Positions 460 through 46,867 of a stretch of 49,840 nucleotides of DNA are shown piece by piece (position 1 is the stretch's first letter; the number at the start of each line of letters is the position of its first letter). The position numbers and the translations under genes were made by a program. The DNA lies in IMG/VR virus record IMGVR_UViG_3300048839_001180, positions 1-49,840 of that record; one strand, given 5' to 3'. The notes beneath the pieces were generated by a model. That model was not told the DNA's origin. It saw only the letters and a list, made by a program, of their open reading frames with translations, and did no database searches. Source of the DNA: a virus.

Positions 460-948
460 ATGATCCAGGTCGAGTATCTCCTTCTCTTCCTTTGAGAAGG
501 TGGCGCAGCATCTCCACTCGTGCACCGGGCACCAGTAACACCAATTGATTATATCGTATGCCCCAATGTATCTCCGTGTGGCACCCCTATAATACATGTA
601 TGATAATCATCATACCTGCCGCACATACATTTATCATGATCATTGATCATAATGTACTAGTACTCATTCTTGCTGTGTTGTGATAGTGATCTGTGTGTGA
701 TATAGTGTGGTTGTACCAACCACTATTGATATATTATAATCATCGGCGCAATGATCACATGATCTAATCATTATAATCAATTATTATCATTATTAATCAT
801 CATTTAATGGATTGTACATTATTGTACATTGATGTATATGGTTTCCAGTGGAAACACACGTATATGTAGCATATACCCGGTGTTACTTTTAGTCAATGTA
901 TCGTTACTGAATCATACCGATTAATTCTTTTTTATTATTGTGATTAGC
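460..948. other. AT-rich noncoding region with palindromes; candidate replication origin or control region
   Basis: No convincing gene lies in this stretch. From about 600 it is very AT-rich and packed with palindromes: ATGATCAT at 636-643, GTACTAGTAC inside 644-664, a GGTTG-TAC-CAACC hairpin at 708-722, tandem copies of ATTGTACATT at 811-830 and a perfect GTTTCC-AGT-GGAAAC hairpin at 841-855. The element TGATCATAATGTACTAGTACT (644-664) has a near-copy at 9045-9066 in the other large noncoding gap. Since the virus encodes its own MCM helicase, an origin is a reasonable guess; a cluster of operators is the alternative. Bases 460-597 are less AT-rich and hold only a doubtful minus-strand open frame. 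Confidence 0.4.
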
Positions 949-951
949 ATG
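916..951 (+). promoter_or_regulatory. Recurring 36-base leader element, copy 3
   Basis: This copy starts ACCGATTAATTCTTTTTT and ends GTGATTAGCATG. It closely matches the copy at 2480-2514 and sits immediately before the SLOG-family gene. GTGATT is a partial Shine-Dalgarno match four to five bases before the ATG at 949. Confidence 0.55.
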
Positions 952-1320
952 AAAGTGATAATAGCAGGTAGTAGAAACTACCATGATTACACCGCCTTAA
1001 GCGTGGTGTTAGACCGTAACTTGACGGATGGGGACGAGATTGTGTCTGGATGTGCTAAAGGTGTAGACACCATGGCAATTAATTACGCCATGATACACCG
1101 GATACCCCTCCACAAATACCCGGCAAACTGGGTCAAATACGGGTTCAATGCAGGACCTATACGTAACAGGGAGATGGCATTATTCGCTGACCGGCTTATC
1201 GCATTCTACAATGGAGAATCGCCAGGAACCAAGAACATGATACAAACCATGTTAAAACTCGGGAAACCCGTAACAATCATTGACATCAACACAGACGCAT
1301 CACAACCCAGCAAGGAGTAA
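949..1320 (+). CDS. SLOG-fold protein, YspA/DUF2493-like
   Basis: A 123-residue single-domain protein with the signatures of the DUF2493 branch of the SLOG (Rossmann-like, nucleotide-ligand binding) superfamily. It has N-terminal KVIIAGSRNYHD, then SGCAKGVDTMAINYA, then YPANW...AGPIRNREM, and near the end ADRLIAFYNGESPGT. These are the usual ligand-loop motifs of the family. Family members are thought to bind nucleotide-derived ligands, but the ligand here is unknown. The GTG at 940 lies in the ribosome binding element, so the ATG at 949 is chosen. A second, divergent SLOG-like domain occurs inside the tape measure protein of this virus, and a Tad2 homologue is also present. Interference with nucleotide signalling is therefore a fair but unproven idea. 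Confidence 0.85.
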   Translation: MKVIIAGSRNYHDYTALSVVLDRNLTDGDEIVSGCAKGVDTMAINYAMIHRIPLHKYPANWVKYGFNAGPIRNREMALFADRLIAFYNGESPGTKNMIQTMLKLGKPVTIIDINTDASQPSKE

Positions 1321-19092: not shown

Positions 19093-22000
19093 TTACCCTG
19101 TCCTTTGTGCACCCGACTGGTTTCCAAGTTGTGCCATCCACATGGAGAATTTCTGGAATAAGTCATAGTCGCTATCTCCTTTGATTTCAAACGTGTTCTG
19201 ATTTATGGTTGGTTGTTTCAGTTTCTCGTTGATTGATTTTAGTTCTGCAAGTGTTGCTTTCTGGTCGATTTCAGTTGTAGGGACTGTTAGTTTTTTGATT
19301 TCAAAATCTTGTAACGCATTATATGTGCCTTTATATGATTCTCCAAACAGCCCATACTTTCCCTCAATTGGGCGGTTTACAATTTCTGATGATTTAATTG
19401 ATTCTCCAATAACTCCTTGTGGACCGTTGCCAGTTATGAGCGACCAGATTCCGCCAGTGCCCCCAATCAGGTCTGACAGGGCTGCCATTGCAAGCCCTTT
19501 AGGACCACCCATACCATAAGAAATTGCGGTTGATGTACCGACCCGGATCCCGGTTTCAAGCATGTCGTTATTTTTAATCATGCCCCCGACATACGGAAGG
19601 TTTGATGGTGATAATGTGCCTTCTCCGCTTACAACGGCTTCTCCAATATGTTTCCCAAATTCTGGGGCAACAAATCCACCAAGGGCTTTTGAGACTGTTG
19701 GGCCAAAATATTTTTCAATCAGGTTAAACCCAACTTGCCCGGCTCCACCAAGTGCTGCGCTTTTTGCAATTTCTACAGGGTCGTCGGATTCAAACGCTCC
19801 TAATACTCCTCCCAGAGCAGTCATCCCTGGAACGCCTTCAAGTATTGGGAACGACTTTATCAGACCTTTGAACACGCCTTTGATAGAATCAAATACGCCT
19901 TTTATTCCCTCGAATATCTTACCAGTAACTTCGTATACAGGTTTCAACCGTTCTGCAATTCCTTTTACAAAATCAACTGCATTTTGCATATGCAGTTTAA
20001 AGCGGTCAAACACGTCAAACACCGGCTTTAATTTTTCAAGCATTCGTTGATACAGTTCTGCGGCTTTTTCAGCCAATCTGTCCCAAATACTTTTCTCACC
20101 TTTATCTCCTTTTACGTCTGCCGTTTTTGGTGCATCTGGTGTTTTAAATCGTTCTTTCAACCAATCAAATGCGCCACGGATACCTTCTCCGATTCCCCGA
20201 AGAGTTCCTTCTGCAATTGGGCCAAACCCTTGAGTCCATGCATAAATCCCAAGTATTGCTGCACCAATTGGGACTAAAGGTCCAAGCCCACCAACGATAC
20301 CTACAAGTTGTGCAGCGGCCATTGTCCGGAGTGCACCAAATCCGCCAGACATTATTGCAGATACCCCGGCATTTGCACGGGTTATCGCATTTGTAACCAT
20401 TGAGAACCCTTTACCAGCAAGTGCTCCTGCTGCAAGTGCAGGTGCAAGTGGTGCCATCAATGCTCCTGCTGTCTTTGAGACTGCACCCAGGGTAGCGAGA
20501 GCAGCGGATCCTGCTTCAGATGATACAACACCCGAATATGCTGATGTGAGACCTCCTATGAGTCCTGTGGCGCCTCCTACAATACCACCATCGGCATACC
20601 CTTTTATGCCAATTTGTTTTAGCATTTTATGAGAAAGGATAACCTCTCCCGGCATTGCGGCAATCAATTCCGAATCTTTATTACCAAATCCTGGAATTAC
20701 ACCGCCATTTGCATAATATGGAATCCCGTCAAGTTCTCCTTTAGGAGACGGGCGTGGCATTTCTGGCCGAGCCTTTCCAAGCATTCCACCGGGGATCCAA
20801 TTTGGAGGTTTATATTCTCCAACTATTTTAGTATCTCCAAATGGTTCGGTGTGAAGCCCGTGCTCGGTTCCATACCAATCTGGAGTCCCTAATGCATCCC
20901 CGCGTAACATTCTATCACTACGACGCATCCTCCCACGCCGAGCAAAAATAGGGGGGTCTCCTGCACCTGGTGGAACCCACCCTGCATTCCCAAATGTGAA
21001 ATTCGGAGCATTGACAATGGTTCTTGCTGCACTAATGACAATATCTTTTGCAGTTTTCATTCCATGCCCGGCAGTTCCAGGGCCTCCGGGGATCCATCCC
21101 GGATGAGTGCCAGGTCTCCAATCGGGTCCAGTAGTTAATCCGGTTTCTCCGTATGGAACAACGGCATATCCCGGGTCAGTGTTTAATTTTAAATTTTTGA
21201 TTTCATCCGGCATCGGGTAGAGTTTTTCAAGAATTCCCAATACCGAATTTGCGAATTTGTCAATCGCAATGCACGTTTTATCAATAACAACCGGAAGACC
21301 GCCAATGAGTTTAAACCATTTATACGTGTCATACCCAATTTTTGCAAGTGCAACCGCACCAATTCCAAGGATTACTGGAAATCCCCGTATAATGTTTCCA
21401 ATGGTTACTAACCCGCCTACAACAGGTTTGATAAGCGGGACTAATGGCATCAGGAACATGTCGCCGATATACCCGATTCCTTTTCCAATAGAATCGTGCA
21501 TCTGGGCATACGTTTTAGAAGTCTGTCCAAAGATACGCATTACGTGGTTTGCAATAAGCAGGGATGTGGTTGCCCCACGGATGGACCGGTAATATTGTTG
21601 CCTGGCATGGTCTTCTTTCTCAAGAAGGGTCCAATATCCTTTAGGAGCAAGATTCTCCCAATCCATTTCGTCTGCTTGAACTTTATCAACCCTCTGCTTA
21701 TAGTCACCCATTAACCGGTATTTCTTAGCAGGTAACCCGGCAATCGGGCCTTTTTCTATAGCGTTCTGCCATCCTTTGGGGTGTGGAGGATTATACAGGA
21801 ATTGGTCTTTGAACACTTTTTCCCAATCTACGCCTCCTCCACCACTTGGCATCCCACCACTACTGCGTCCACGTCTTGGAGCACCACCAGATCCGGATCC
21901 CCCTGATCCAATTGATGCGGCAAGGTTACTGAACCATGCATCAAACCGCGACAGCGTGGCGTCACAGAGGTTTACTACTGGTTTCCCCCCTTCTATATGG

Positions 22001-25000
22001 ACACCATCGGATCTTCCATTCTGGAGGGCTTCAGATGCGGCTGAACGAACATCTGGAGACCCTTGTCCAGGGAACTCTGGCATGAGTATTTTTGATAACG
22101 CAAAATCTTCTTCTGGTGTAAGATGTTCTCTTCCTTCCCGATAGTTTGGATACGGTGGTAACTTTGGGTCTCCCCCGGTTGGGGCCGTTCCTGATATTTG
22201 TTGCCCGAACTTGTCCCAAATCTCATCTGGTGTTAATGGTAATGCAGGCGGTTTCACTGACGCCGGGGTTGCGGGTGGCAATCCTTTATATCGCTTAATA
22301 TATGCAATTGCAGACGGATCTGCAGTCTCTTTTATTTTAGGTGAACCAAAACTTCCGAATTCGGATATTGTTTTATAATTAGATTTTACCCACCCAAATA
22401 GCGATTTTAAATCGTCGGATTCACCAAGTTCTCCAGATTTAACCATATCAACAAGATTGTTAATTTGTTCTCCAAAAAACCTTGAACTTCCAATAAGCAT
22501 TCCGTTGTTTTGTTTTACAACATTCTCAATATATTGAGCATTAATTTCAACGCCTTTTAGATATTCTTGGTTAGATAGTCCATCAAGCGTCATTGGCGGG
22601 TATTGTGTGTTTCCAACTAATTTGGACCTTCCAAGTGCTGTAGGTGGCTGTCTTGCACGCTCTACTATTGCATCAACATTCCAAGGAGGGAGTAGTGGAG
22701 ATAAATCCGGCTGCGAATTTAATTCCCCTTTATGCAACCTGTCATAAAATGACATTGCCCTGGTATTGAAATCAGCGATTGCACTTTGTATTCCATTACT
22801 ATCCATCATTGTTGGGGTTCCAACTCTCCCCGTAGTTCGAGATACAGACAAGATTTGTGCAAGGTCAGGAACATCTTTGAAAAACGATGCATATGCCCCA
22901 AGTTGCAATCGGTGTGCTGGATCTACCTTTTTGTAACCGCTTTCGCCTTTTGTTTTTAAATCGATTAATGTTGGGGTTCCTTGAATTGTGCCTAACAAAT
23001 CAAGGGTTCCAGAAAATCCACGGTCTAAATCAACAAACCGCTCTTCTAATGAATGCGCTTCAAATCCAAGACCCTCTAACGCATTAAGTAAACTCCGAGT
23101 TCCAAGTTCAATCATGTCTTTTAAATCGGACTCCAGTTTTCCTCCAGTTGCCTTTGGATTTACATCTACTGCGGTATTTCTCCAATCGGTTTCTTCTGAA
23201 AATCTATCAATCGTGTCTTTACTCATACCTTGCTTCTTTGCAAGTTCGAGCGCTACACGCCGATGAATTTCGGTGCCTGTGGCAGAATGCCAGGGATGCA
23301 TATACGGTTTTGCTTTTTCAAACCCAGATTGTGCATCTTTGTCACCAAATCTGATAATAGATGAAACCGAGGGTAAAACATGCCCTTCTTTTGTTTTATA
23401 GAAATGATCATCTTCTTGAGGTTCATTGGTAACATTAATCACCCCTTTCGCTGGAGTAAATGTTCCTTTCTCAAGCATACGTAGGTTTTTATTAGACACG
23501 ACGTCAAAGCCTCCGGGGCCGGCTACCAGAAGTTCTGGGCCGTCCTCACCTACAATTACGGGGGCATCAGATTTAACCGTTGGTGCAATGCGAACGCCAG
23601 TTTGTCCGAGTGTTCCCTTGGCGAGAAATCGAATGTCGTCTGGGTTGTTGATGTTTCCCCGATTGTATAAATCGCGTGAGAGCCCCATCATTTCAAGAGC
23701 AGAATACATAACTTCGGGAATCATTCGTGGAGACGCACTACGATACCCAATAAGGTCAAGCCGGGTAAGAAAATCATCTGCATTCTCCCGAAGGTCCGGA
23801 GTAATCTTTAACGATGTGAAATCCCCACTTCCAGAGATTGCAATCTGTTTATACATTCCACCAAGAAGCGCAGTCCGGATATCTGCAAAACTAAACGATG
23901 GTTCCCCGCTTGGATGGTTGTGGATACCTACTGATGCAGGAAGGTCTGCTCTTTGAAGTTGAGTAAGAAAGGCTTCGCCTTCTTCGCCTACGCTAAACTG
24001 CCCGCGAAGTTGTCCTGGTTGAAAAATACCCATATGTTCGACATCTTTACCCATAATGGACTTAGCGTATAATGCACGAATCTTCTGTGATGCCGGGGTA
24101 TCCCTCTTTTCTGGATCCTGATTAAGAAACTCACGAATATCTTCAATCTTCATATCATGGAGAATGTCGTTCCGCCATTCGTCGTCAATAGACTTGTCCT
24201 GAATGAGCCGTGTTATTGCAGACTTATTACTAAAATCAAGGAACTTCAACTTATCAAGTTGCGACATCGCCATTGCTGTAGTCCGGGTCCATGCCGGGGG
24301 TTTATATGCATCCAGACTGATGTTATCCATTCCCGACAAATGCCGGTTGAAGTATTCCATAAACGTAAGTTTGTTCTTCAACCCTTCATCCGGATCAAAC
24401 TGTTGTTTCGTAGGATGCCATACAAGTTTGATTGGCTTTTTCGTGGACTCTGCTACATCACGAAGTTCTTGTAACCTGGCAAAACTGGAGGTGGTAAGAT
24501 AGGTCTCATCGAAGAACGCAACAATTCTATCAGACACACTTGCAACATCAGAGAAAGCAAGGTCTATCTCTTTAGGTTCTCCTTTCTCATCATGGAATAC
24601 TTTCCCATCTACCCCTCTCTTAAACTGTTTGTTCGCTTTGAATTTGTGCTGAAACGCATCATTCCAATACCCCCAATTTGCAGCCTGGTATGCAGCACCA
24701 ATTGACGGGCGTTCCCCTTCCTCGTTTGGAATTGCGGCTTTACCGATGTTTCCAAGAGAAGTCACCATAATGTCGTTGGGGTTCCAATGCTTCCGCATAT
24801 ACTTGTTCATGAACGCAGAATCGTCCCATGACTCTGATCCGATAACGCCAACACGTTCAGTATCTTTTAGTTTGAGTTCACCTTCTACAATACGAGCAGC
24901 AATGTTAGTAATTGCGTGGTCAATCGTCCCACCAAACACCGAGTCTTCGGTATTATAGAACCGGTTGTAAAATTTCTGAACCGATTTGATTAATCCGCGA

Positions 25001-26451
25001 CCATACTCATTTTCAAGAGCACCTTCAATAAGGTCGGTATATTTCCCGGTTTTAGACCATAGTCTGAACGGTTTAATTTCGTTTGTATCGTCAGTAACAT
25101 CCCGGGTATCCCGTGAGAATTCGCTCCCATAATTATCGATTAAAAACTTAACCTGGTCGCTTGCAGCGCCCATTCTCCGGTCTGCTACTGCACGTTCAAG
25201 TTCCATGATTGCTTTTGCATGTGCAATCTTGGCTTCGACTTTTATTCCAAGCCCAGTCTTCTCATTGAACAACGGAACATCTTTCAACGATAATGGAACA
25301 TGGGCTTCATGCAGTTTAGCACCAAACCGCCCATACTTGTCGGTATAATCGTCGAGTTGGTTCTCATACCGGATATACCATTCTTCCATCTCATCGAGAT
25401 AATATTGGGTAAGTTTACTCTTCCCTTGTGCATCTGTTGACGAATATGCAAGTGGCTCAATATGAGTGCTTTTGAACAATGGCGATTCATATGCCTTTGA
25501 AGGTCTGCCATGAACATCAATTGAAGACGGTGCAGACTTTACATGAATCCCAAGATCTGCTCCCATCAGGGTCCCAATCATGTCCATTGGGGTAGCCTTT
25601 CCAGACGTTTTCTCAATTGTCCCTGGTTTTCCAGGGGCAATCATTGGAATCAAATCTGCAACATCGTGTTTAACTGCTGTAAACTTCGGATTACTTGATT
25701 TTTGAACCGGGGGTTTGCTTGTAATCTTTTTCCATTTTCGTTCCTGAATTTCGTATAACAGTTCGGAAACTTCATCCCACTTTGCTTGAATCCCTTTTAC
25801 ATCAAGTGTTGCTGCAGAATCCCACGTATCTCCATCTACACCGGCATACTCACTGGTGCCGGTAGTCTGTTCATACATATCAGAAGTTCTGATATCCTTG
25901 GCTCTCGATACAAGAGCACTCGTAATAGTGCCACGCTTGTTACCGGTCTTATAAACAGACTTCACTGTAGCGGGTTGCCGCATCTTTTGCTTTCTAAAGC
26001 GCAGACCGCTACCATAATTGCGTTGAACACCTTTCCTACGCTTTGATATCTTTACAATCTCATCCAGTATTTCTGATGCCTCTGTGATTGTCTGGTGGCA
26101 TTGTATAGACTTGGCATCATACCCGAGATTATGTAATGCAACTTTTATGATTGGGATTTCGGCTTTGTTCGGATTGTTATGGATATCGATAATGCGGTCA
26201 ACATCCATAATCGCACCTTCAACCTGTTCAAGCGTAAGGTTTGACAATCGAACATGCTTTTCCTTCTCAATCGTTGCTGCAACTGCCTGCTGGATAATCT
26301 GGTAATTATCCCGCCCAATATACGCATCGTTCTGCAGAATCTTCTTAAATTTAAGAACATCAACTTTTTGCCCAGACGTGAGTTTTGAAAATGGGGCGTC
26401 ATATAATTTCTTTGCAATTTCGTCCGGTGATGGAATGTTTATTCGCCCCAT
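19093..26451 (-). CDS. Giant tape measure protein carrying SLOG-, JAMM- and PD-(D/E)XK-like domains
   Basis: A 2452-residue protein. The C-terminal 950 residues are a tape measure: hydrophobic stretches near 1655-1705 and 2000-2080, the motif GGVIPGFGNKDSELIAAMPG (about 1912-1935), YADGGIVGG, and repeated amphipathic helices. The N-terminal 1500 residues carry extra domains. About 532-690 is SLOG-like (RVGVIGSESWDD, SDRIVAFFDETYL). About 815-900 is JAMM-like (H844-x-H846-P, S854, D857 in HNHPSGEPSFSFAD). About 1020-1235 is a RecB/Cas4-type PD-(D/E)XK nuclease (GTEIHRR with H1063, E1136, D1151 in GTLDLLG, D1164-x-K1166, then LQLGAYA). A VGEDGPELLVAG motif typical of tape measures lies at about 964-976. 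The start is taken as the ATG at 26451; a TTG at 26460 is in frame. During tail assembly it sets tail length; the extra domains could enter the cell with it. Confidence 0.85.
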   Translation of the reverse strand: MGRINIPSPDEIAKKLYDAPFSKLTSGQKVDVLKFKKILQNDAYIGRDNYQIIQQAVAATIEKEKHVRLSNLTLEQVEGAIMDVDRIIDIHNNPNKAEIPIIKVALHNLGYDAKSIQCHQTITEASEILDEIVKISKRRKGVQRNYGSGLRFRKQKMRQPATVKSVYKTGNKRGTITSALVSRAKDIRTSDMYEQTTGTSEYAGVDGDTWDSAATLDVKGIQAKWDEVSELLYEIQERKWKKITSKPPVQKSSNPKFTAVKHDVADLIPMIAPGKPGTIEKTSGKATPMDMIGTLMGADLGIHVKSAPSSIDVHGRPSKAYESPLFKSTHIEPLAYSSTDAQGKSKLTQYYLDEMEEWYIRYENQLDDYTDKYGRFGAKLHEAHVPLSLKDVPLFNEKTGLGIKVEAKIAHAKAIMELERAVADRRMGAASDQVKFLIDNYGSEFSRDTRDVTDDTNEIKPFRLWSKTGKYTDLIEGALENEYGRGLIKSVQKFYNRFYNTEDSVFGGTIDHAITNIAARIVEGELKLKDTERVGVIGSESWDDSAFMNKYMRKHWNPNDIMVTSLGNIGKAAIPNEEGERPSIGAAYQAANWGYWNDAFQHKFKANKQFKRGVDGKVFHDEKGEPKEIDLAFSDVASVSDRIVAFFDETYLTTSSFARLQELRDVAESTKKPIKLVWHPTKQQFDPDEGLKNKLTFMEYFNRHLSGMDNISLDAYKPPAWTRTTAMAMSQLDKLKFLDFSNKSAITRLIQDKSIDDEWRNDILHDMKIEDIREFLNQDPEKRDTPASQKIRALYAKSIMGKDVEHMGIFQPGQLRGQFSVGEEGEAFLTQLQRADLPASVGIHNHPSGEPSFSFADIRTALLGGMYKQIAISGSGDFTSLKITPDLRENADDFLTRLDLIGYRSASPRMIPEVMYSALEMMGLSRDLYNRGNINNPDDIRFLAKGTLGQTGVRIAPTVKSDAPVIVGEDGPELLVAGPGGFDVVSNKNLRMLEKGTFTPAKGVINVTNEPQEDDHFYKTKEGHVLPSVSSIIRFGDKDAQSGFEKAKPYMHPWHSATGTEIHRRVALELAKKQGMSKDTIDRFSEETDWRNTAVDVNPKATGGKLESDLKDMIELGTRSLLNALEGLGFEAHSLEERFVDLDRGFSGTLDLLGTIQGTPTLIDLKTKGESGYKKVDPAHRLQLGAYASFFKDVPDLAQILSVSRTTGRVGTPTMMDSNGIQSAIADFNTRAMSFYDRLHKGELNSQPDLSPLLPPWNVDAIVERARQPPTALGRSKLVGNTQYPPMTLDGLSNQEYLKGVEINAQYIENVVKQNNGMLIGSSRFFGEQINNLVDMVKSGELGESDDLKSLFGWVKSNYKTISEFGSFGSPKIKETADPSAIAYIKRYKGLPPATPASVKPPALPLTPDEIWDKFGQQISGTAPTGGDPKLPPYPNYREGREHLTPEEDFALSKILMPEFPGQGSPDVRSAASEALQNGRSDGVHIEGGKPVVNLCDATLSRFDAWFSNLAASIGSGGSGSGGAPRRGRSSGGMPSGGGGVDWEKVFKDQFLYNPPHPKGWQNAIEKGPIAGLPAKKYRLMGDYKQRVDKVQADEMDWENLAPKGYWTLLEKEDHARQQYYRSIRGATTSLLIANHVMRIFGQTSKTYAQMHDSIGKGIGYIGDMFLMPLVPLIKPVVGGLVTIGNIIRGFPVILGIGAVALAKIGYDTYKWFKLIGGLPVVIDKTCIAIDKFANSVLGILEKLYPMPDEIKNLKLNTDPGYAVVPYGETGLTTGPDWRPGTHPGWIPGGPGTAGHGMKTAKDIVISAARTIVNAPNFTFGNAGWVPPGAGDPPIFARRGRMRRSDRMLRGDALGTPDWYGTEHGLHTEPFGDTKIVGEYKPPNWIPGGMLGKARPEMPRPSPKGELDGIPYYANGGVIPGFGNKDSELIAAMPGEVILSHKMLKQIGIKGYADGGIVGGATGLIGGLTSAYSGVVSSEAGSAALATLGAVSKTAGALMAPLAPALAAGALAGKGFSMVTNAITRANAGVSAIMSGGFGALRTMAAAQLVGIVGGLGPLVPIGAAILGIYAWTQGFGPIAEGTLRGIGEGIRGAFDWLKERFKTPDAPKTADVKGDKGEKSIWDRLAEKAAELYQRMLEKLKPVFDVFDRFKLHMQNAVDFVKGIAERLKPVYEVTGKIFEGIKGVFDSIKGVFKGLIKSFPILEGVPGMTALGGVLGAFESDDPVEIAKSAALGGAGQVGFNLIEKYFGPTVSKALGGFVAPEFGKHIGEAVVSGEGTLSPSNLPYVGGMIKNNDMLETGIRVGTSTAISYGMGGPKGLAMAALSDLIGGTGGIWSLITGNGPQGVIGESIKSSEIVNRPIEGKYGLFGESYKGTYNALQDFEIKKLTVPTTEIDQKATLAELKSINEKLKQPTINQNTFEIKGDSDYDLFQKFSMWMAQLGNQSGAQRTG

Positions 26452-26463
26452 ATCAATCAACTC

Positions 26464-26664
26464 TTAATGATGTTCTCGTTGTTCTGCAATCTCGCGATTT
26501 TGTTCTGCTACCGATTCACTAATGAAAATGTCTTCTTCCATACTCGCAGGCCATTGACCAGACGGCGTTTTCTGGAACTTCTGACATTTCATAAACAGAA
26601 ATTTCCCTGCATTACTTTTTGCGAAAGTCGCCAATCTTCTCTTCGCTCTTCTCAATACCCGCAT
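26464..26664 (-). CDS. Frameshift extension of tail assembly chaperone (T part)
   Basis: This open frame overlaps the end of the chaperone gene and ends 12 bases before the tape measure ATG. Its first ATG has no ribosome binding site. Reading CGC AAA AAG TAA (26623-26612) with a +1 or -2 slip on the A-run gives about 50 extra residues from SNAGKFLFMK to the C-terminal AEQREHH. A short chaperone plus a frameshifted extension just before the tape measure is a conserved arrangement in tailed phages (lambda G and GT). The shift direction here differs from the common -1. Confidence 0.6.
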   Translation of the reverse strand: MRVLRRAKRRLATFAKSNAGKFLFMKCQKFQKTPSGQWPASMEEDIFISESVAEQNREIAEQREHH

Positions 26665-27016
26665 ACATTGAGTTCAGAACACCCCAGAACTTCCCGGTAT
26701 GAGTATCGTAATATTCCCAGAATTCCGGGGTATTGAACGGGGATTCAAGACACAGTTTTGCAGCAATCTCGTATCCTTCGGACTCAATGTCAGAAAAGTC
26801 AACCGGCTTATCTTTCCCACGCTTCTTGTTACGTTCGTACATATACCGGACTTCCCGGGGGAATGCCGATACCACTTTTATCGGAACACCAGCAAGGTCA
26901 AACGTCTGGTTCCGGTCTTTCTCGTTTTCGAGAATCTTCTGAACAAGTTCGTTAGAATCGAGTTCTTTTGACTCAAATGATTTGAGCCTCTGCATAAGGT
27001 CTTTAGATTCAGCCAT
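26612..27016 (-). CDS. Tail assembly chaperone (G-like)
   Basis: A 134-residue charged helical protein (MAESKDLMQRLKSFESKEL...) between the major tail protein and the tape measure, where tail assembly chaperones are always found. The middle (PREVRYMYERNKK) and the helical C terminus fit. An ATG at 27025 is also possible. A T7ATATT stretch 30 bases upstream could be both terminator and TATA box. The end of the gene carries the A-run discussed under the frameshift extension. Confidence 0.65.
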   Translation of the reverse strand: MAESKDLMQRLKSFESKELDSNELVQKILENEKDRNQTFDLAGVPIKVVSAFPREVRYMYERNKKRGKDKPVDFSDIESEGYEIAAKLCLESPFNTPEFWEYYDTHTGKFWGVLNSMYAGIEKSEEKIGDFRKK

Positions 27017-27046
27017 TTTTACCATCAAATCAATTGACGGCAATAT

Positions 27047-35876: not shown

Positions 35877-36728
35877 TTAATACCTCATGATTAATATTTC
35901 TGGTATATGATATTGGAGAATAACTACTCCCGATCCACCACCGCCATAATCATAAGTTCCAGGAACATAATACCCAGCAGCACCACCACCTCCACCTAAT
36001 CCATTCGTACCAGAAACCCCACGAGCAATATTTTTAAATGGGCCCTTTGCCGATCCTCCCCCACCAAGTCCGCCAACTCCCATATCGGCAGAGGACGCAT
36101 CAGATGCCCCTCCACCACCAGCATAATAAATCAATTCTCCAGTTATATCAGATTGCAACCCATTACCACCAGTTTTAATTACTCCAGCGGCACCTGCTCC
36201 ACCACCACCGCCACCAGCATATGGAGACGTAGTTTTTGGTGGCCCGCCATTATTTCCTTGTCCTATAGTACCAGACCCCCCTGCCCCGCCATTTACTGGC
36301 GACCCGCCACCACCAGATCCTCCAGACCCTCCAACCCGGTGTCCGGTAGCAACGTTCGCGCCGTGCCCGCCACCATATGCAATTAAATCATTAAAATACG
36401 AGTTCCCTCCATCGTATCCATCTCCTGACATATAAGTTGCACCACATCCTCCAAGTCCTACACCAATCGCATATTCAACTCCTGGAATAACAGACACAAC
36501 AATATCAATCATACCGCCTGCTCCTCCACCACCATTTGCATTACTTCCAGAACTTTCTTCACTTGCTCCACCCCCACCACCAACAAGTAAACACCGTATA
36601 CTTTCAACACCATCAGGACATATCCAAGTCGTAGAAACCGATTCCTTTGATGAAGTCCTGTGTATATCAGTAGTAAATTTCTTCACTATCTTATTATCAA
36701 ATTCAATGGTTTCAATTATCACAGCCAT
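35877..36728 (-). CDS. Glycine-rich adhesin-like tail protein, second paralogue
   Basis: In this 283-residue protein the N-terminal 50 residues (IETIEFDNKIVKKFTTD, TTWICPDGVESIRCLLVG) match its neighbour. Next come glycine-rich loops (GGGGGAS, GGGGAGGM, GGSGGSGGGG) of the kind that form polyglycine sandwiches in phage tail adhesins. The TTWICPDGV segment resembles the glycine-rich domain found in many phage tail proteins. It probably binds the host surface. Its ATG directly follows the neighbour's TAG in frame. The two may be alternative or fused adhesins. Confidence 0.65.
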   Translation of the reverse strand: MAVIIETIEFDNKIVKKFTTDIHRTSSKESVSTTWICPDGVESIRCLLVGGGGGASEESSGSNANGGGGAGGMIDIVVSVIPGVEYAIGVGLGGCGATYMSGDGYDGGNSYFNDLIAYGGGHGANVATGHRVGGSGGSGGGGSPVNGGAGGSGTIGQGNNGGPPKTTSPYAGGGGGGAGAAGVIKTGGNGLQSDITGELIYYAGGGGASDASSADMGVGGLGGGGSAKGPFKNIARGVSGTNGLGGGGGAAGYYVPGTYDYGGGGSGVVILQYHIPEILIMRY

Positions 36729-37658
36729 CTAAATCACTCCATGTTTTACATTCTGAACAAGCAAATTTCCAGATCCAGTGATAATTGCATGGGCAGATTT
36801 TAGTAATATTTTTGAAGTGGTATACCGAAGAATGACAATCCCCGAACCACCAGATGCTCCGTATGCATTATATCCACTCAAATACATCCAGCCACCCCCG
36901 CCCCCAGACCCGGTATTGGGGGCCCCCGGTGTTGCTGGATACGAATATGTTGGTTGCGAATCATAGTAATATCCTCCTCTTCCTCCATTTACATTATTGC
37001 TGCCACCAGCACCCGGCGCTCCATTATTAATTCTAGAACTCCCTCCACCACCAGTTGCATAGATTACACTTATTCCTGTTATATCAGATTGCAACCCATT
37101 ACCACCAGTTTTAATTACTCCAGCAGAACCAGCCCCACCACCACCAGCCCCATATTCGACTGGCCCCGGATATGGCCCTCCGTTATTACCATATCCTATT
37201 AATGTCCCCGAATTTTGTTGTAATGCCAACCCTACTGCATTAACATATGATGCTGCTCCACCACCAGACCCGCCATCGCCAGGGTTTGAGTATTGATATC
37301 CTGCTCCTTTTCCGCCACCGATTGCAATATGCTCGCCAAATTCGGAATTTGCACCAGAGTACCAAAGGTATGAATCTAAAACAATTTTTCCACCAGCACC
37401 AATTTTTATTATGTATTCTGTCCCTGGAATTACAGAAATGTCTCCGTGTAACACGCCGCCAGCACCCCCACCCCCACAACGGCTTTGCATTCCTCCGGCC
37501 CCGCCACCGGCAACAATTAAACATGTAATATTAGTAATACCAGGTGGGCATATCCATGTAATAGAATCTTGTTCTTGTGATGCACTCGGTTCCAAATCAG
37601 TTGTAAATTTCTTTACTGTTGTATCATCAAATTGAATCGTCTCAATAGTCACAACCAT
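36729..37658 (-). CDS. Glycine-rich adhesin-like tail protein, first paralogue
   Basis: A 309-residue protein with the same plan as the next gene: IETIQFDDTTVKKFTTD, ITWICPPGITNITCLIVAGG, then loops such as GGGGAGGVLHG, GGGSGGGAASY and GSGGGGGW. Both share a YxNPGTEY-like VIPGTEYIIKIG motif. The duplication probably gives wider or switchable receptor binding. The stop is TAG and is followed without a gap by the second paralogue in the same frame. The junction GGAGTGATTTAGATG also looks like a ribosome binding site. Confidence 0.65.
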   Translation of the reverse strand: MVVTIETIQFDDTTVKKFTTDLEPSASQEQDSITWICPPGITNITCLIVAGGGAGGMQSRCGGGGAGGVLHGDISVIPGTEYIIKIGAGGKIVLDSYLWYSGANSEFGEHIAIGGGKGAGYQYSNPGDGGSGGGAASYVNAVGLALQQNSGTLIGYGNNGGPYPGPVEYGAGGGGAGSAGVIKTGGNGLQSDITGISVIYATGGGGSSRINNGAPGAGGSNNVNGGRGGYYYDSQPTYSYPATPGAPNTGSGGGGGWMYLSGYNAYGASGGSGIVILRYTTSKILLKSAHAIITGSGNLLVQNVKHGVI

Positions 37659-37663
37659 TCATA

Positions 37664-40600
37664 TCACTCCGCATCCAGTGTCAGCACGCCACATGGTCGA
37701 GTTACAACCCATTTACTTCCACCAATATACACAAGAGTGACACTATCATACCCACTTGTTGATGACAACGTCCCATTTGCAACCGATGAATCAAACCCCA
37801 TTTGTATTGTACAATCTCCTGACGCAGTCACAACCCATACATCACCTTTACCAACAATATCTATCGATTCTCCATTTACTGTTGGTATTGGTAAAGTATA
37901 TGCAACACTTACCGCTTCATACACTGGTGTAATTGTAGCAAACTCAAGTGCATCACCGGCTTCATTAACTACAGGCACTTGGCCAACAGTCCCTAATGTT
38001 GCAGGACAATCAGTCAAATCAGTAAACGATGCAACAGTAGATACATTTGTCAAATTACTTCCATCAACTGCTGGAAGTTTACCTTCTGCATCCAACTGAA
38101 CAAGATTACTTGCTGCAGTTCCAACAGTTAATCCATCTTTCAACTTTTTATTCGTTGAATCCCATTGTGGCACTTTATTATCAGTAGTTGTCTCTGGTCC
38201 GGTAACATCACCATCGCCACCACTTGCAACGCTGATAACACCATCAGTGATATCAATACCACTACCAATCTTCACTCCACCAAGGATAACATCTGTTGCA
38301 ACTGGAAGTTCATATGGATCAGGCAAAGACGCAACATCAAGTTTAGCATTTAATGCCTCCTGCAAGTCGGTCTGGTCTGCAATACTGCCACCAATCGACC
38401 CCCACATCCCTCCACCAGGATTCCAATCGATCCAATCAGTTGCAACACGTTTCAAGTATTTCTGCTGGTTATAATCATAACAAACCGCACCTACCATTAC
38501 ATCGTCAAAATACCAGGCACTTGACGATAACCACGTCGCGATTGCATTCCCATGCCCTTCAAACTCGCTCCCTGCTGTCGGTGCAGACGCTACAATAAAC
38601 CGATCTTCCCAATCATATATCCCCGGGGGTTCCGGTTCAATTGATTTCACCGGGAGTTGCCACGACGCACCGCCAAGACCCGGTGGTCCACGAGGTCCAA
38701 CCGGCCCAATTTGACCAGCCGGTCCAGCCGGTCCTGCAGCACCAGTTGCACCAGTGGGCCCTGTTGCCCCTTGTATACCCTGAACACCCTGAAGCCCTTG
38801 GGGGCCTACAATTGGACCCACATTAACCCAAACAGAATCAGCAGACCATACATAACAATCTCCACTATCCTCGCAATACCATCCGTCATTTAAATCACCA
38901 ACAGCAGGCAAATCTTCAGATGCCGGGACCGACCCTTGCATGTTTATTGAAGTTCCAGGAGACCCTGGCACACCTTGTGGGCCTTCAACACCTTGGATAC
39001 CTTGTTCTCCAGCAGGGCCGGTTGCACCAGGAGCACCGTCTGCTCCATCCGCACCATCAATTCCGTCCCTGCCATCGGTTCCAGCAGGACCTCTTACAAT
39101 TGCCGTTCTGTCATTCCATTCCGGTGTTACTGCATCATATTGCTGGAACCCAGTTCCAACTGCAATAAACATCCCATCTACAAGTTCATCCGGATATGCA
39201 ACAAAATACGCATCTCGTTCTGTATCATCTGCAAACTGGTGGGCTGGATCAATTACAATCGTCCCACTTGCCGGGGTATTTACAAACTTACCCAAATCGT
39301 AATCAAACGCTAATGTGTCTCCACTTGCAGGAGATGCAACCAAAAAATCATCTAATGTTGCAAACCCGTGGGTGTGTGCAGTAAGGGCAAACCCTTCCTT
39401 TGCAACCCCGTCAAGATACGACGCATTCAAATTGTCTATCGTATCACTAACAGATATTGCAAACCCGTTTGTAAACGTATGAATCGCGGTTATCTCCCGG
39501 TTATTCGAAATATGAACATACTGGGTGTGGTCATCAACAGCAAGGTTTTGCAATGCAGAATGAGACACCGCCCCTGGCATCTGAACCCATAGCGTTCCAT
39601 TATACGCATATGCATAATTATCATCTTTGTTTGCAAGACACCACCCGGCATCAGGAACCTCGTATCCCCAATGATCCACTACATATGTCGCTATCTCATC
39701 TTCATGCCCTACAAACACCCCTGACGTTCCGCTGTGGGCAACCAAGTAACGTTCTCCATCACTCGGAGATTCTGGTGGAGATGTAACAATCGATTCTATT
39801 GGCTGTTGCCATACAACACCACCAATCAATCCACCCACATAATCAACCGTAACTGCATCCGACCCGGCTACCGGTTCCCCAACATTAATTATCCGATTAT
39901 TTCCGGCATTTAGAATACCAGAAAGGGTTCCCCCGGATAACGGCAAATATTGTGAATGAGTATGTGGATACCCATCAATATTGTAAGTTTGCCCCACAGG
40001 GATGTTAATCTTAGATGGGAACACTCCATATGGAAGCCGGATAAGCCCGTCTTTATAGACTTTAAGCACAGTCATCACTGTTGACGACCCTCGGGGCTTT
40101 ACTGCAATAACAACCCTTGGGTCTTCGGATCCATCACCCAAATCACCGTCGCTGCCGCCACCACAAATTAACAGCCCCCCTCCAAACAACGCCGCATTCT
40201 GGTTCTTAAACAAATTTGTAACAAACCCAATATTTGTAGGGCTGGGTGTAGAGTTTGCGCTATAAACATGTCCATTTAAGTCCAGTATTCCAGCATATGT
40301 CGATAAATTCAAATCACCGTATACTTTGCATTTATATTCGCCAGACCTGGCAGAATGCGGGGTCTTTACAAACAACCCGTCCGGAACATACGCTCCATAT
40401 CCAGCGTTCCGCAGATATGTACCCTCGTTATCATGCCATGCAGTCAGACAATGCTGGTTAGGATCAAGTGGTATAATACTCCCACTTGCAGTCTTTACCC
40501 ATCCTGCATTCATCCGAAGATATGGAATCCCATCTATCGGAGCCTCACTAATTCCACCAGACCCAATATTTCGCCATACCGAGTCCGGGGAGTTATATAC

Positions 40601-41236
40601 CATAACTTCGCCAAGTTCTTCGTTATAACACGCCCAGCCGTCACCAGGAGTCAGAAACTCCCATCGGCCTTCATCGTCATACCAAACCGCAATTTCGTCC
40701 GAATGTCCAATGAAGTCGCCAACAGCGCCTTCGTCCACAATATATCGTGCTCTGTCGTATGCTGGTGTAGGAGATGCAATCTCAATCGAAATTACCGGGT
40801 CTTGCCATGACAATCCTTGTACAAACTGGTCAACATAAAACTTGGTTGCTGGTTCGTGTGACTCTACTGGGGTTTGCAAATTGACAATCTTGTTGCCCTG
40901 AACGTCCACAGTCCCATCGTCACCAATAATTATAGATGTGTCGGTTATCAGTTTCCCGGTGATATCATCAAACACCACAATTGACCGGTCTGTAGACGAA
41001 TTAGGACCGGTAACGTCTCCCGTTCCCGTTCCTGTTACTGGTTTATTGATATATTTCCCCGTTGCCGGGTCATACCCAATATAATCACCAGTTGTAGGAG
41101 ATGCCACAGCAACATCAGTTAAATCTACAAGAGATGCCACCATTGACATCCCCGATGCAACTATCACAAGCGGGTTCGCTTCGGTTCCAACCGGGACTCC
41201 GGTCCCATCAATCAAGATTGCAGTTCGTTCTGCCAT
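37664..41236 (-). CDS. Long tail fibre with collagen-like and DUF2793-like repeats
   Basis: A 1190-residue fibre. The N-terminal segment AERTAILIDGTGVPVGTEAN may attach it to the virion. Three similar domains at about 144-224, 475-552 and 859-937 contain P-x-x-S-I...GH-x-x-x-I-A...W, as in the DUF2793 phage family. Two collagen-like Gly-X-Y stretches lie at about 714-762 and 805-855 (GADGADGAPGATGPAG, GPTGATGAAGPAGPAG). The C-terminal part is beta-rich and likely trimeric. It would reach out to the host surface. The start follows AGGTGATGAATA. The gene sits between portal and protease genes, not at the tail end. Confidence 0.75.
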   Translation of the reverse strand: MAERTAILIDGTGVPVGTEANPLVIVASGMSMVASLVDLTDVAVASPTTGDYIGYDPATGKYINKPVTGTGTGDVTGPNSSTDRSIVVFDDITGKLITDTSIIIGDDGTVDVQGNKIVNLQTPVESHEPATKFYVDQFVQGLSWQDPVISIEIASPTPAYDRARYIVDEGAVGDFIGHSDEIAVWYDDEGRWEFLTPGDGWACYNEELGEVMVYNSPDSVWRNIGSGGISEAPIDGIPYLRMNAGWVKTASGSIIPLDPNQHCLTAWHDNEGTYLRNAGYGAYVPDGLFVKTPHSARSGEYKCKVYGDLNLSTYAGILDLNGHVYSANSTPSPTNIGFVTNLFKNQNAALFGGGLLICGGGSDGDLGDGSEDPRVVIAVKPRGSSTVMTVLKVYKDGLIRLPYGVFPSKINIPVGQTYNIDGYPHTHSQYLPLSGGTLSGILNAGNNRIINVGEPVAGSDAVTVDYVGGLIGGVVWQQPIESIVTSPPESPSDGERYLVAHSGTSGVFVGHEDEIATYVVDHWGYEVPDAGWCLANKDDNYAYAYNGTLWVQMPGAVSHSALQNLAVDDHTQYVHISNNREITAIHTFTNGFAISVSDTIDNLNASYLDGVAKEGFALTAHTHGFATLDDFLVASPASGDTLAFDYDLGKFVNTPASGTIVIDPAHQFADDTERDAYFVAYPDELVDGMFIAVGTGFQQYDAVTPEWNDRTAIVRGPAGTDGRDGIDGADGADGAPGATGPAGEQGIQGVEGPQGVPGSPGTSINMQGSVPASEDLPAVGDLNDGWYCEDSGDCYVWSADSVWVNVGPIVGPQGLQGVQGIQGATGPTGATGAAGPAGPAGQIGPVGPRGPPGLGGASWQLPVKSIEPEPPGIYDWEDRFIVASAPTAGSEFEGHGNAIATWLSSSAWYFDDVMVGAVCYDYNQQKYLKRVATDWIDWNPGGGMWGSIGGSIADQTDLQEALNAKLDVASLPDPYELPVATDVILGGVKIGSGIDITDGVISVASGGDGDVTGPETTTDNKVPQWDSTNKKLKDGLTVGTAASNLVQLDAEGKLPAVDGSNLTNVSTVASFTDLTDCPATLGTVGQVPVVNEAGDALEFATITPVYEAVSVAYTLPIPTVNGESIDIVGKGDVWVVTASGDCTIQMGFDSSVANGTLSSTSGYDSVTLVYIGGSKWVVTRPCGVLTLDAE

Positions 41237-43197: not shown

Positions 43198-44589
43198 TTA
43201 AATTTCTATAAAGCCACCCCGGGGTTTAATAGGATAGTCGTCATCTCCCCAACCATACAAATCGTCTACCGGAGACCCGTCTTCAGATGTGCACAACGAA
43301 TCAGTATTCCAATCAAACACGTCGTCTCCTATGTCAACATCCCGCTCTTCTGCAAGTTTGTCATATTCTTCCTGAGTAAGATCCGATTCAAAACCACCCA
43401 TGCATAATGCAACACCGCCATTCATACCGTAGTTGCAAAGCATCAAAGAACACACACAATCATCAAAGAACCCTTTAGGAGCACCATACTTGATGTTTCC
43501 TGCGTCTGTGTGGACATATGTGAAAGATTCCAACTCTTCCCGCAGAACCGGAATTGGTGGCATATAGATGTTACAATTGTGAAACGCGATTGCTAACCGG
43601 TTTACCAATTGTTTCTTACTATCGTTTGTGAAATGATAACTTACGATATTTACCCCGTCTTCTTCCAAATCTTCCTGAACTGCGTCTCCTACGCCAGTAG
43701 TGTCCAAAAATACCGGGGGATTATAATATTTTTTGTATGCAGCCTTTATTCTTGATCTGATGAAAGACCAAGACGTTTTGTTGAATCGTTCGAAGTAGAC
43801 AACTTCTTTAGTTGCTGGATTTCCAACGGTGATAACGGTAAAGTCCTGATGCCGTCCAAGGTCGCATCCCATAACGTATATTGTCCCCGGAACAGGTTCA
43901 TCCAGAATATTACTTCTGGTACAGGCGTCAAGGTTCTTGAAAACGGTTCCGCCGTCTGACAAGAAAATTGCAAGGATTTCCTGTTCGAATTCGAGTTCTG
44001 ACAAGTCTTGAACAATTTCTTCAAGTTCACTACGTTCCAGAAACGGGTTATCATACGACGAAAACGTGAACGATTCCCAACTTGGATGATATTTTGATCC
44101 ACCTTTAACACCTTTTTGATATAATCGGTAATACCAATTCTTTCCTCTTGGGGTCGTGCAAAACAACGCCCACCCCATTTTATCCATTAATGCAGGTCGA
44201 ATTACTTTAAACCATGCGTCAGGGTGAATCATTGCCGCTTCATCAAGGACAACCCCGTCAAGACCTTCTCCTCGAAGGTTATCATACTTATCAGCAGACT
44301 TTGCCCATATCGTAGCCCCGTTTTTGAGCTCAATACACAACTTACCCAGATATGTCTGCTTGATATACTTTTTTGGAAGAAGTTTAACAACCATCCTCCA
44401 CATAATATCAGTTTGGGGGAAGGTAGGAGACACAATCCAATATATACCCACGGGGTTCGCCAACGCGGATATTATGATTTTGGCAGCGCCAAACCACGAT
44501 TTCCCGAAGCGGCGTCCGCAATTTAAAGTTATAAAGCGGGCTTTTGATGAATACACCTTCATCTGGTTTTCGTGTAATCCAATTTCCAC
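43198..44589 (-). CDS. terL: Terminase large subunit
   Basis: A 463-residue protein. It cuts and packages viral DNA using ATP. The ATPase half has Walker A GRRFGKS (residues 25-31) and Walker B VVLDEAA with D116-E117, then a coupling motif TTPRG. The nuclease half has acidic residues D243 in GCDLGRHQDF, D296 in LDTTGVGDAV and D376-D377 in FFDDCVCSL, the RNase H-type triad. The GTG start at 44589 follows GAGGTGTAAC; an in-frame start further upstream lacks support. The identical assembly termini suggest circular permutation, in line with headful packaging. Confidence 0.92.
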   Translation of the reverse strand: MEIGLHENQMKVYSSKARFITLNCGRRFGKSWFGAAKIIISALANPVGIYWIVSPTFPQTDIMWRMVVKLLPKKYIKQTYLGKLCIELKNGATIWAKSADKYDNLRGEGLDGVVLDEAAMIHPDAWFKVIRPALMDKMGWALFCTTPRGKNWYYRLYQKGVKGGSKYHPSWESFTFSSYDNPFLERSELEEIVQDLSELEFEQEILAIFLSDGGTVFKNLDACTRSNILDEPVPGTIYVMGCDLGRHQDFTVITVGNPATKEVVYFERFNKTSWSFIRSRIKAAYKKYYNPPVFLDTTGVGDAVQEDLEEDGVNIVSYHFTNDSKKQLVNRLAIAFHNCNIYMPPIPVLREELESFTYVHTDAGNIKYGAPKGFFDDCVCSLMLCNYGMNGGVALCMGGFESDLTQEEYDKLAEERDVDIGDDVFDWNTDSLCTSEDGSPVDDLYGWGDDDYPIKPRGGFIEI

Positions 44590-44613
44590 GTTACACCTCA
44601 ACCGCAATCAATA

Positions 44614-45997: not shown

Positions 45998-46867
45998 TTA
46001 GTCCTCCTTGATATATTCTTCAAACCTAAACTTGAACTCTCGAATCTGCGCTTCCTGGCTAAACCACTCGTCGTAAAACACTGCGCATGCCTTTTGAGCC
46101 TCTACCAACCCATCTTGATTGCGCAATCCTTCATGAAACTCAAGGATTGTCTTCTCAATATCGGCAATGTCAAACACAACCGGAAACGGGAACCCACCAA
46201 CCAATTCTTCAAAATCATTAATTCCACCCACCTGAACCGGGAATTTCCCGCCACTTTCAACATACACCGGGATTCTCCCGTATGCTAACGTTTCATAGAA
46301 CCGGAGCGACCAGTTGGCGTTCCCACGAGCACATAACTGGTATTGGTTCGCCAACATGTTGTTTTTGAACAGCGGTGCATTTTTCTTATAATCAGCCCGG
46401 GTATCGTTCCAAAACCCGGCAGAATCTCCGTCTGGCTTGGTGTGGATATGAAAGTCTACGCAAATGTCGTCAGACCACATTAATCGCTCTAACGCTTTAT
46501 ACCGGGGCTCAAACCCAGCATGAATCGCCCCGCCGCCATTAGGGGTTCCAAAACCCGGGCATCGGCCTACAAACCCCACTGATGGAACTTCTGTGTATTC
46601 TGACGGGGACATTTGCACAAAATTCGAAAACTCCTGTTGTAACCACATCCAAGACCCGGGAGACTCAGATGACGTTAAAAACTGAAATCCAACAAATCCC
46701 GGAATCGGGAATGCAAAGTCAGATGAAATAAACACAAATTCATACTTGTTCAGGTCATCAATTGGAACCTTTGGTGGATGGGTTTCATAAATGTCCGCCA
46801 GGTAATGATACCCCAGAACTTCCGGGTAACAACTGCAATGACTCTTCACAAACTCAAATAGCCCCAT
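45998..46867 (-). CDS. Exostosin-like glycosyltransferase
   Basis: A 289-residue protein whose C-terminal half matches exostosin/GT47-type enzymes: NQYQLCARGNANWSLRFYET (about 176-195) followed by LAYGRIPVYVESGG, the family's conserved 'R-x-x-E-x-L-x-x-G-x-I-P-V' nucleotide-sugar site. The N-terminal half has a Rossmann-like outline (YEFVFISSDFAFPI, VGFVGRCPG). It probably transfers a sugar to a viral or host surface glycan or protein. It is the largest gene of the accessory block. Confidence 0.7.
   Translation of the reverse strand: MGLFEFVKSHCSCYPEVLGYHYLADIYETHPPKVPIDDLNKYEFVFISSDFAFPIPGFVGFQFLTSSESPGSWMWLQQEFSNFVQMSPSEYTEVPSVGFVGRCPGFGTPNGGGAIHAGFEPRYKALERLMWSDDICVDFHIHTKPDGDSAGFWNDTRADYKKNAPLFKNNMLANQYQLCARGNANWSLRFYETLAYGRIPVYVESGGKFPVQVGGINDFEELVGGFPFPVVFDIADIEKTILEFHEGLRNQDGLVEAQKACAVFYDEWFSQEAQIREFKFRFEEYIKED

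Follow-up and report, generated by a model that had tools for sequence, protein, structure and literature searches.

A probable tape measure protein of an archaeal virus bears a predicted PD-(D/E)XK nuclease within a polyvalent-like multidomain module

Introduction

Can the tail ruler of an archaeal virus also carry enzymes, and might it bring them into the host cell? The question is raised by a very long gene of IMGVR_UViG_3300048839_001180, an entire linear IMG/VR virus contig of 49,840 bases, the whole of which was analysed here. The original prediction had read the gene product as a tape measure protein (TMP) and placed within its first 1,500 residues a SLOG-like segment, a JAMM metal site and a full set of PD-(D/E)XK nuclease residues; the corresponding activities would enter the cell with the TMP and act early against host DNA, competitors or immune signals. 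Bacterial phages carry virion proteins into the cell. To our knowledge, little is known about how archaeal tailed viruses survive their first minutes against restriction and CRISPR.

The virus and its tape measure protein

Terminase, portal and prohead-protease-like genes on the contig point to a head-tailed virus, and all 16 records matching its MCM helicase, among the 50,697 phage records searched, belong to archaeal viruses. The helicase and the head-tailed gene set together give good support to the assignment to an archaeal virus. Two scans of cellular genomes found no match, so the host can be placed no more closely than among the archaea. The closest named phages of the terminase (43198–44607, minus strand) are Thermus phage P23-45, Tunturiibacter phage Tunturi_4 and Halorubrum phage Hardycor1 (about 31–36%). 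The contig also encodes a tail fibre of 1,190 residues (37664–41236, minus strand) with collagen-like repeats and a domain duplicated about 330 residues apart, seen as two stretches in several PHROG hits; two glycine-rich paralogous proteins side by side, adjoining the fibre gene (35877–37658, minus strand); and a protein with a weak exostosin (GT47) match, possibly a virus-borne glycosyltransferase (46001–46867, minus strand).

The features that define the TMP and its upstream neighbour are the following:

19093..26460, minus strand: TMP open reading frame, uninterrupted; 2,455 residues from a TTG start, 2,452 from the ATG at 26,451
24961..26460, minus strand: N-terminal region (residues 1–500), unannotated; its opening motif A-x2-LY-x2-PF-x2-L-x4-K is common to the related virus described below
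23524..23559, minus strand: motif VIVGEDGPELLV (residues 968–979), also present in a conventional 646-residue TMP of another virus
19096..21900, minus strand: predicted C-terminal ruler part (residues 1521–2455), with hydrophobic segments at about 1668–1709 and 2047–2074 according to hydropathy
26464..27043, minus strand: G/GT-type tail assembly chaperone; the open reading frame 26612–27043 overlaps the frame 26464–26664, with the junction GGCGACTTTCGCAAAAAGTAAT

Residues are numbered from the TTG start, that is, three higher than in the original prediction, which counted from the ATG; in that count its residues (H844-x-H846, S854, D857, H1063, E1136, D1151 and D1164-x-K1166) proved exact.

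The 2,455-residue protein is very probably a siphovirus-type TMP, as judged from the TMP-family matches of its C-terminus, the chaperone upstream, a TMP motif and the tail genes downstream. The top matches of the last 935 residues are four TMP PHROG families, with E-values of only 2.7e-4 to 0.04. The motif VGEDGPELL at residue 970 recurs in the conventional 646-residue TMP, which lies on an unrelated virus contig. The gene order runs from the major tail protein through a frameshift-type chaperone pair and the very long TMP gene to the distal tail genes, and the C-terminal part holds two strongly hydrophobic stretches, as expected for a membrane channel-former. These features, together with the helicase, bear out the reading of the gene as the TMP of an archaeal virus. 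In the chaperone, both frames and the junction are conserved in the related virus, where the overlap nucleotides are identical despite differing chaperone proteins; a programmed +1 or -2 frameshift is probably used.

Domain arrangement and its conservation in a related virus

Four further features lie between the unannotated N-terminal region and the ruler part:

24409..24861, minus strand: SLOG/Rossmann-like segment (residues 534–684), proposed from hhalign and from a structure model searched with Foldseek; present in both viruses
23638..24240, minus strand: JAMM-bearing segment (residues 741–941), with sub-threshold RadC and Prok-JAB matches; gapped in the related virus
23881..23922, minus strand: JAMM metal-site motif HNHPSGEPSFSFAD (residues 847–860), with H-x-H-P-x(6-9)-S-x2-D complete
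22726..23415, minus strand: predicted PD-(D/E)XK nuclease (residues 1016–1245), with H1066, E1139, D1154, D1167-x-K1169, Q1186 and Y1190

A terminase scan recovered three related contigs. Two of them, G001 (3300009082_000040) and G002 (3300027792_000046), seemingly represent one virus, whose terminase is 70% identical to that of the virus studied here; their ends flank the TMP gene, which is absent from both. The third, IMGVR_UViG_3300042808_000082 (48,289 bases), encodes a TMP of 2,096 residues in a single frame, in which alignment places the same nuclease and SLOG-like segment in frame. Identity between the two proteins is 24% over residues 1–500, 36% in the SLOG-like segment, 53% in the VGExGPELLV linker, 30% in the nuclease, 19% over residues 1246–1494 and 47–51% in the C-terminal ruler. 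Because an independent contig has the same in-frame order, the fusion is old and real rather than the product of a sequencing error or chance joining of genes, and the enzyme-bearing architecture of the TMP is almost certainly genuine.

The JAMM segment follows a different pattern, with 194 of its 201 residues opposite a gap in the TMP of the relative; as read from this alignment, the segment is either an optional insert or has been lost from the relative. The set of three domains proposed for this TMP stands, with the JAMM domain as a probable member, but is not conserved as a set. This type of TMP is known from two viruses only, and the JAMM domain is not common to both. Only the one relative emerged when viral contigs were scanned with the part spanning SLOG, JAMM and nuclease, with the TMP and nuclease alignments, and with DNA patterns for the JAMM motif and the C-terminus, and the more distant terminase relatives (G004–G009) gave no matching TMP. 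A further candidate (L055) was rejected, as it has an ordinary TMP with only the VGEDGPELL motif in common. The whole TMPs of both viruses found no match by tblastn against the 50,697 phage records.

The nuclease domain

The domain with the strongest evidence is the nuclease. It matches Pfam PF12705 (PDDEXK_1) with an E-value of 2e-5 when the whole protein is searched and 1e-6 with the segment, its scores of 25.1–29.3 bits being above the gathering score of 22 bits, and the exonuclease family PHROG 298 (E-values of 8.4e-13 and 1.6e-14), which the relative matches independently (9.8e-11). Five stand-alone phage exonucleases, aligned with one another, matched the domain in hhalign with a probability of 97.5% (P 7e-12), against 0.2% for a control with an unrelated alignment, and the active-site columns GxxH, E, D, D/E-x-K and Q-x3-Y align with those of the stand-alone enzymes. 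When the residues of the protein were shuffled 20,000 times, the PD-(D/E)XK pattern arose in 0.005% of the trials. The full PD-(D/E)XK set first noticed in this TMP is therefore upheld by the Pfam score, by PHROG 298 and by hhalign, and a nuclease domain of the phage exonuclease/Cas4 type can be firmly predicted. Cas4 proper was rejected, with a score of 11.5 bits for the cas4 equivalog TIGR00372 against a cut-off of 65 and, in place of the four cysteines of the Cas4 iron-sulphur cluster, zero cysteines in residues 1016–1245.

All seven motif residues (H1066, E1139, D1154, D1167, K1169, Q1186 and Y1190) are kept in the relative, an outcome expected by chance about once in 5,000 at 30% identity. 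Their survival in so divergent a domain suggests selection for catalysis, and the nuclease is very likely to be catalytically competent. The nuclease structure predicted with AlphaFold2 was poor (mean pLDDT 36) and gave no useful fold match in the PDB, and PDB sequence searches with the nuclease, JAMM and SLOG segments found no match.

The SLOG-like and JAMM segments

The SLOG-like segment found no match in Pfam, PHROG or NCBIfam. A profile of the two viral sequences aligned with a nine-member alignment of YAcAr SLOG proteins over the full domain length (hhalign 93.8%, P 1.7e-7), with control pairs at 0.1–0.3%. In the structure model that contains the segment (mean pLDDT 50), the predicted SLOG core reaches 70–86, and the best PDB matches of this medium-confidence model by Foldseek, with modest E-values of 0.006–0.08, include 2pmb, YtoQ and YgdH, which we take to be SLOG-type or closely related nucleotide-binding folds. 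The segment shares with YAcAr/YspA SLOG proteins the Rossmann-like order of strands and helices, the G-x-x-GS start and the D-x-(I/V)-AF strand, and in all likelihood it adopts a SLOG fold, judging from profile and model alike. However, the SGxARGxD, W..GK.AG..RN and S-x-GT motifs of those proteins are missing from the TMP version, in which the YAcAr phosphate-binding motifs (SGxARGxD, AGxxRN and S-x-GT) are altered. The proposed fold thus holds up, but nucleotide sensing becomes a weak reading because the phosphate-binding motifs are lost. The same virus encodes a second, canonical SLOG protein, a stand-alone member of the YAcAr family (940–1317, plus strand; PF10686, E-value 1.6e-12).

The JAMM motif is intact, and its pattern arose in 0.08% of 20,000 residue shuffles of the protein, but all the profile scores fall below their curated cut-offs: 16.3 bits against 22.1 for RadC (E-values of 0.0097–0.012) and 15.4 against 25 for Prok-JAB (0.017–0.023). 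By hhalign, the segment reached 84.7% (P 6.6e-6) against a RadC alignment, a match confined to the motif (22 columns). This weak score is no disproof, since the established JAMM-type protein gpK of lambda scores lower still (44.9%); with Prok-JAB, gpK also falls short of the cut-off (23.3 against 25). E808 is a candidate for the upstream catalytic glutamate, in a part of the model where the pLDDT is mostly below 50. A true JAB/JAMM fold is likely, at a lower grade than the SLOG fold, and the domain is probably of the metalloprotease type and restricted to this virus. Across the profile and structure searches, the nuclease and the SLOG-like segment found support, while the JAMM segment stayed sub-threshold and the nuclease model was unusable.

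A possible route into the host cell and its alternatives

In the proposed mechanism, the N-terminal ~1,500 residues would form an enzyme module rather than a ruler, comprising the SLOG-like segment, the optional JAMM domain and the PD-(D/E)XK nuclease of the Cas4/lambda-exonuclease type, and the C-terminal ~935 residues would act as the ruler and membrane-active part. At the helix rise of 1.5 Å per residue, the whole protein would correspond to a tail near 370 nm and the C-terminal part to about 140 nm, an ordinary siphovirus length, so the N-terminal 1,500 residues are probably not part of the ruler. As in other siphoviruses, the N-terminus would be expected where the tail joins the head, close to the leading end of the DNA. 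In 80alpha, the neck shows residues 1–37 of the TMP together with DNA and the tail completion protein, and three TMP C-termini lie at the baseplate (PMC11661146); for JBD30, a model has been proposed in which the TMP exits the tail and builds a DNA channel (PMC11445458). By analogy, the enzyme module would be the last part of the TMP to come out of the tail, with the genome following directly behind, and once refolded inside the host it would act on DNA during the opening minutes of infection. There, the nuclease would most likely trim DNA ends, belonging either to host DNA or to the incoming viral genome, the latter in preparation for recombination or circularisation. That it processes the end of the incoming viral DNA is no less probable than the originally proposed attack, whether aimed at host DNA, at competitors or at immune signals.

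The main weakness of this model is the fit in the tail tube. Folded domains of 15–25 kDa on each chain of a trimeric TMP are hard to fit, and several of them on three chains would exceed a 4-nm tube, so the domains would be unfolded, stacked or elsewhere in the virion; the module may also be processed off. Moreover, such a position would expose the end of the viral DNA to the nuclease unless the enzyme were kept inactive. With these points weighed, delivery of the module into the cell, argued from other phages, is only just on the probable side, and the complete model, in which the module enters with the genome and acts early on DNA, is evenly balanced.

Processing is the core of the foremost alternative, according to which the N-terminal module is cleaved before or during tail assembly and its enzymes work free in the cell late in infection, in replication, recombination or packaging, without virion delivery. 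The relatives in PHROG 298 carry annotations as exonucleases that take part in phage DNA metabolism, the C-terminal 935 residues would be enough for a normal tail, the JAMM domain could in principle be a protease, and TMPs are frequently observed as fragments, according to the 80alpha paper (PMC11661146). Nevertheless, no cleavage site was identified, a late structural gene offers poor timing for a replication enzyme that is needed at the early or middle stage, and the lack of the JAMM segment in the relative speaks against a general role of this domain in processing; this explanation is rather unlikely. Less likely still, the domains could be structural remnants that lack catalysis and serve only to fill space or to contact DNA within the neck of the tail. 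The altered phosphate-binding motifs of the SLOG-like segment and the dispensable JAMM segment would agree with such a role, which is countered by the seven of seven nuclease motif residues kept at 30% identity (about 1 in 5,000 by chance). Lastly, an artefact, with separate genes joined by a sequencing or assembly error or with chance pattern matches, is highly improbable: G001 and G002 end beside the TMP gene and the region assembles poorly, but the same in-frame order in an independent 48-kb contig refutes a false joining for the nuclease and SLOG parts, and a chance pattern match is ruled out for the nuclease by its profile scores and by shuffling.

Comparison with known systems

The enzyme-bearing TMP most closely recalls the polyvalent proteins. 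Several predicted enzymatic domains lie within one large protein of an invasive element, a trait of that class; the hub domains MuF, zincin-like MPTase, ArdC-N and ART gave no Pfam match in it. Like the polyvalent proteins, which are predicted to be delivered with DNA, it is one large polypeptide with enzymatic domains of the nucleic-acid or conflict type, RadC/JAB included (PMC5512222); for the TMP, delivery is likewise proposed, from TMP biology. Here, in contrast, the module is fused to the TMP of an archaeal virus and includes a domain of the Cas4/exonuclease type. The main text of Iyer et al. 2017 mentions neither tape measures nor SLOG, assigns RadC to the polyvalent proteins of conjugative elements only, and describes archaea as poor in polyvalent proteins, with examples longer than 1,000 residues almost all bacterial (PMC5512222).

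Other comparisons concern the single domains. The stand-alone exonucleases of PHROG 298/PF12705 share with the TMP domain the framework Y..G..PSV..I, G..H, E, GT-x-D, D-x-K and Q..AY, but they are separate genes of about 230–250 residues, whereas the domain here lies within a late structural protein. Enzymatic domains in TMPs are known from muralytic TMPs and from pb2 of T5, the TMP said to contain a zinc carboxypeptidase (PMC11445458); these serve passage through the cell envelope, unlike the predicted DNA nuclease and SLOG-like segment described here. Similarly, gpK of lambda (JAMM plus NlpC/P60) has the H-x-H-P...S-x-x-D motif in a tail gene, but that gene stands by itself downstream of the TMP gene and joins the motif to a peptidase, whereas the JAMM site here is inside the TMP. 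In the literature searched, mostly outside subscription journals, no precedent was found for a TMP with a nuclease, toxin or SLOG domain, nor for the combination of the three domains, in line with the novelty first claimed for it.

Significance

A polyvalent-like module that contains a conserved exonuclease and is carried by the tape measure of an archaeal virus represents a real and unusual virion-borne multidomain effector architecture, as predicted from its domains. The nuclease is a compact domain of about 230 residues, whose activity and virion location are directly testable. If the proposed mechanism is true, the tail ruler itself could be a delivery vehicle for DNA-acting enzymes.
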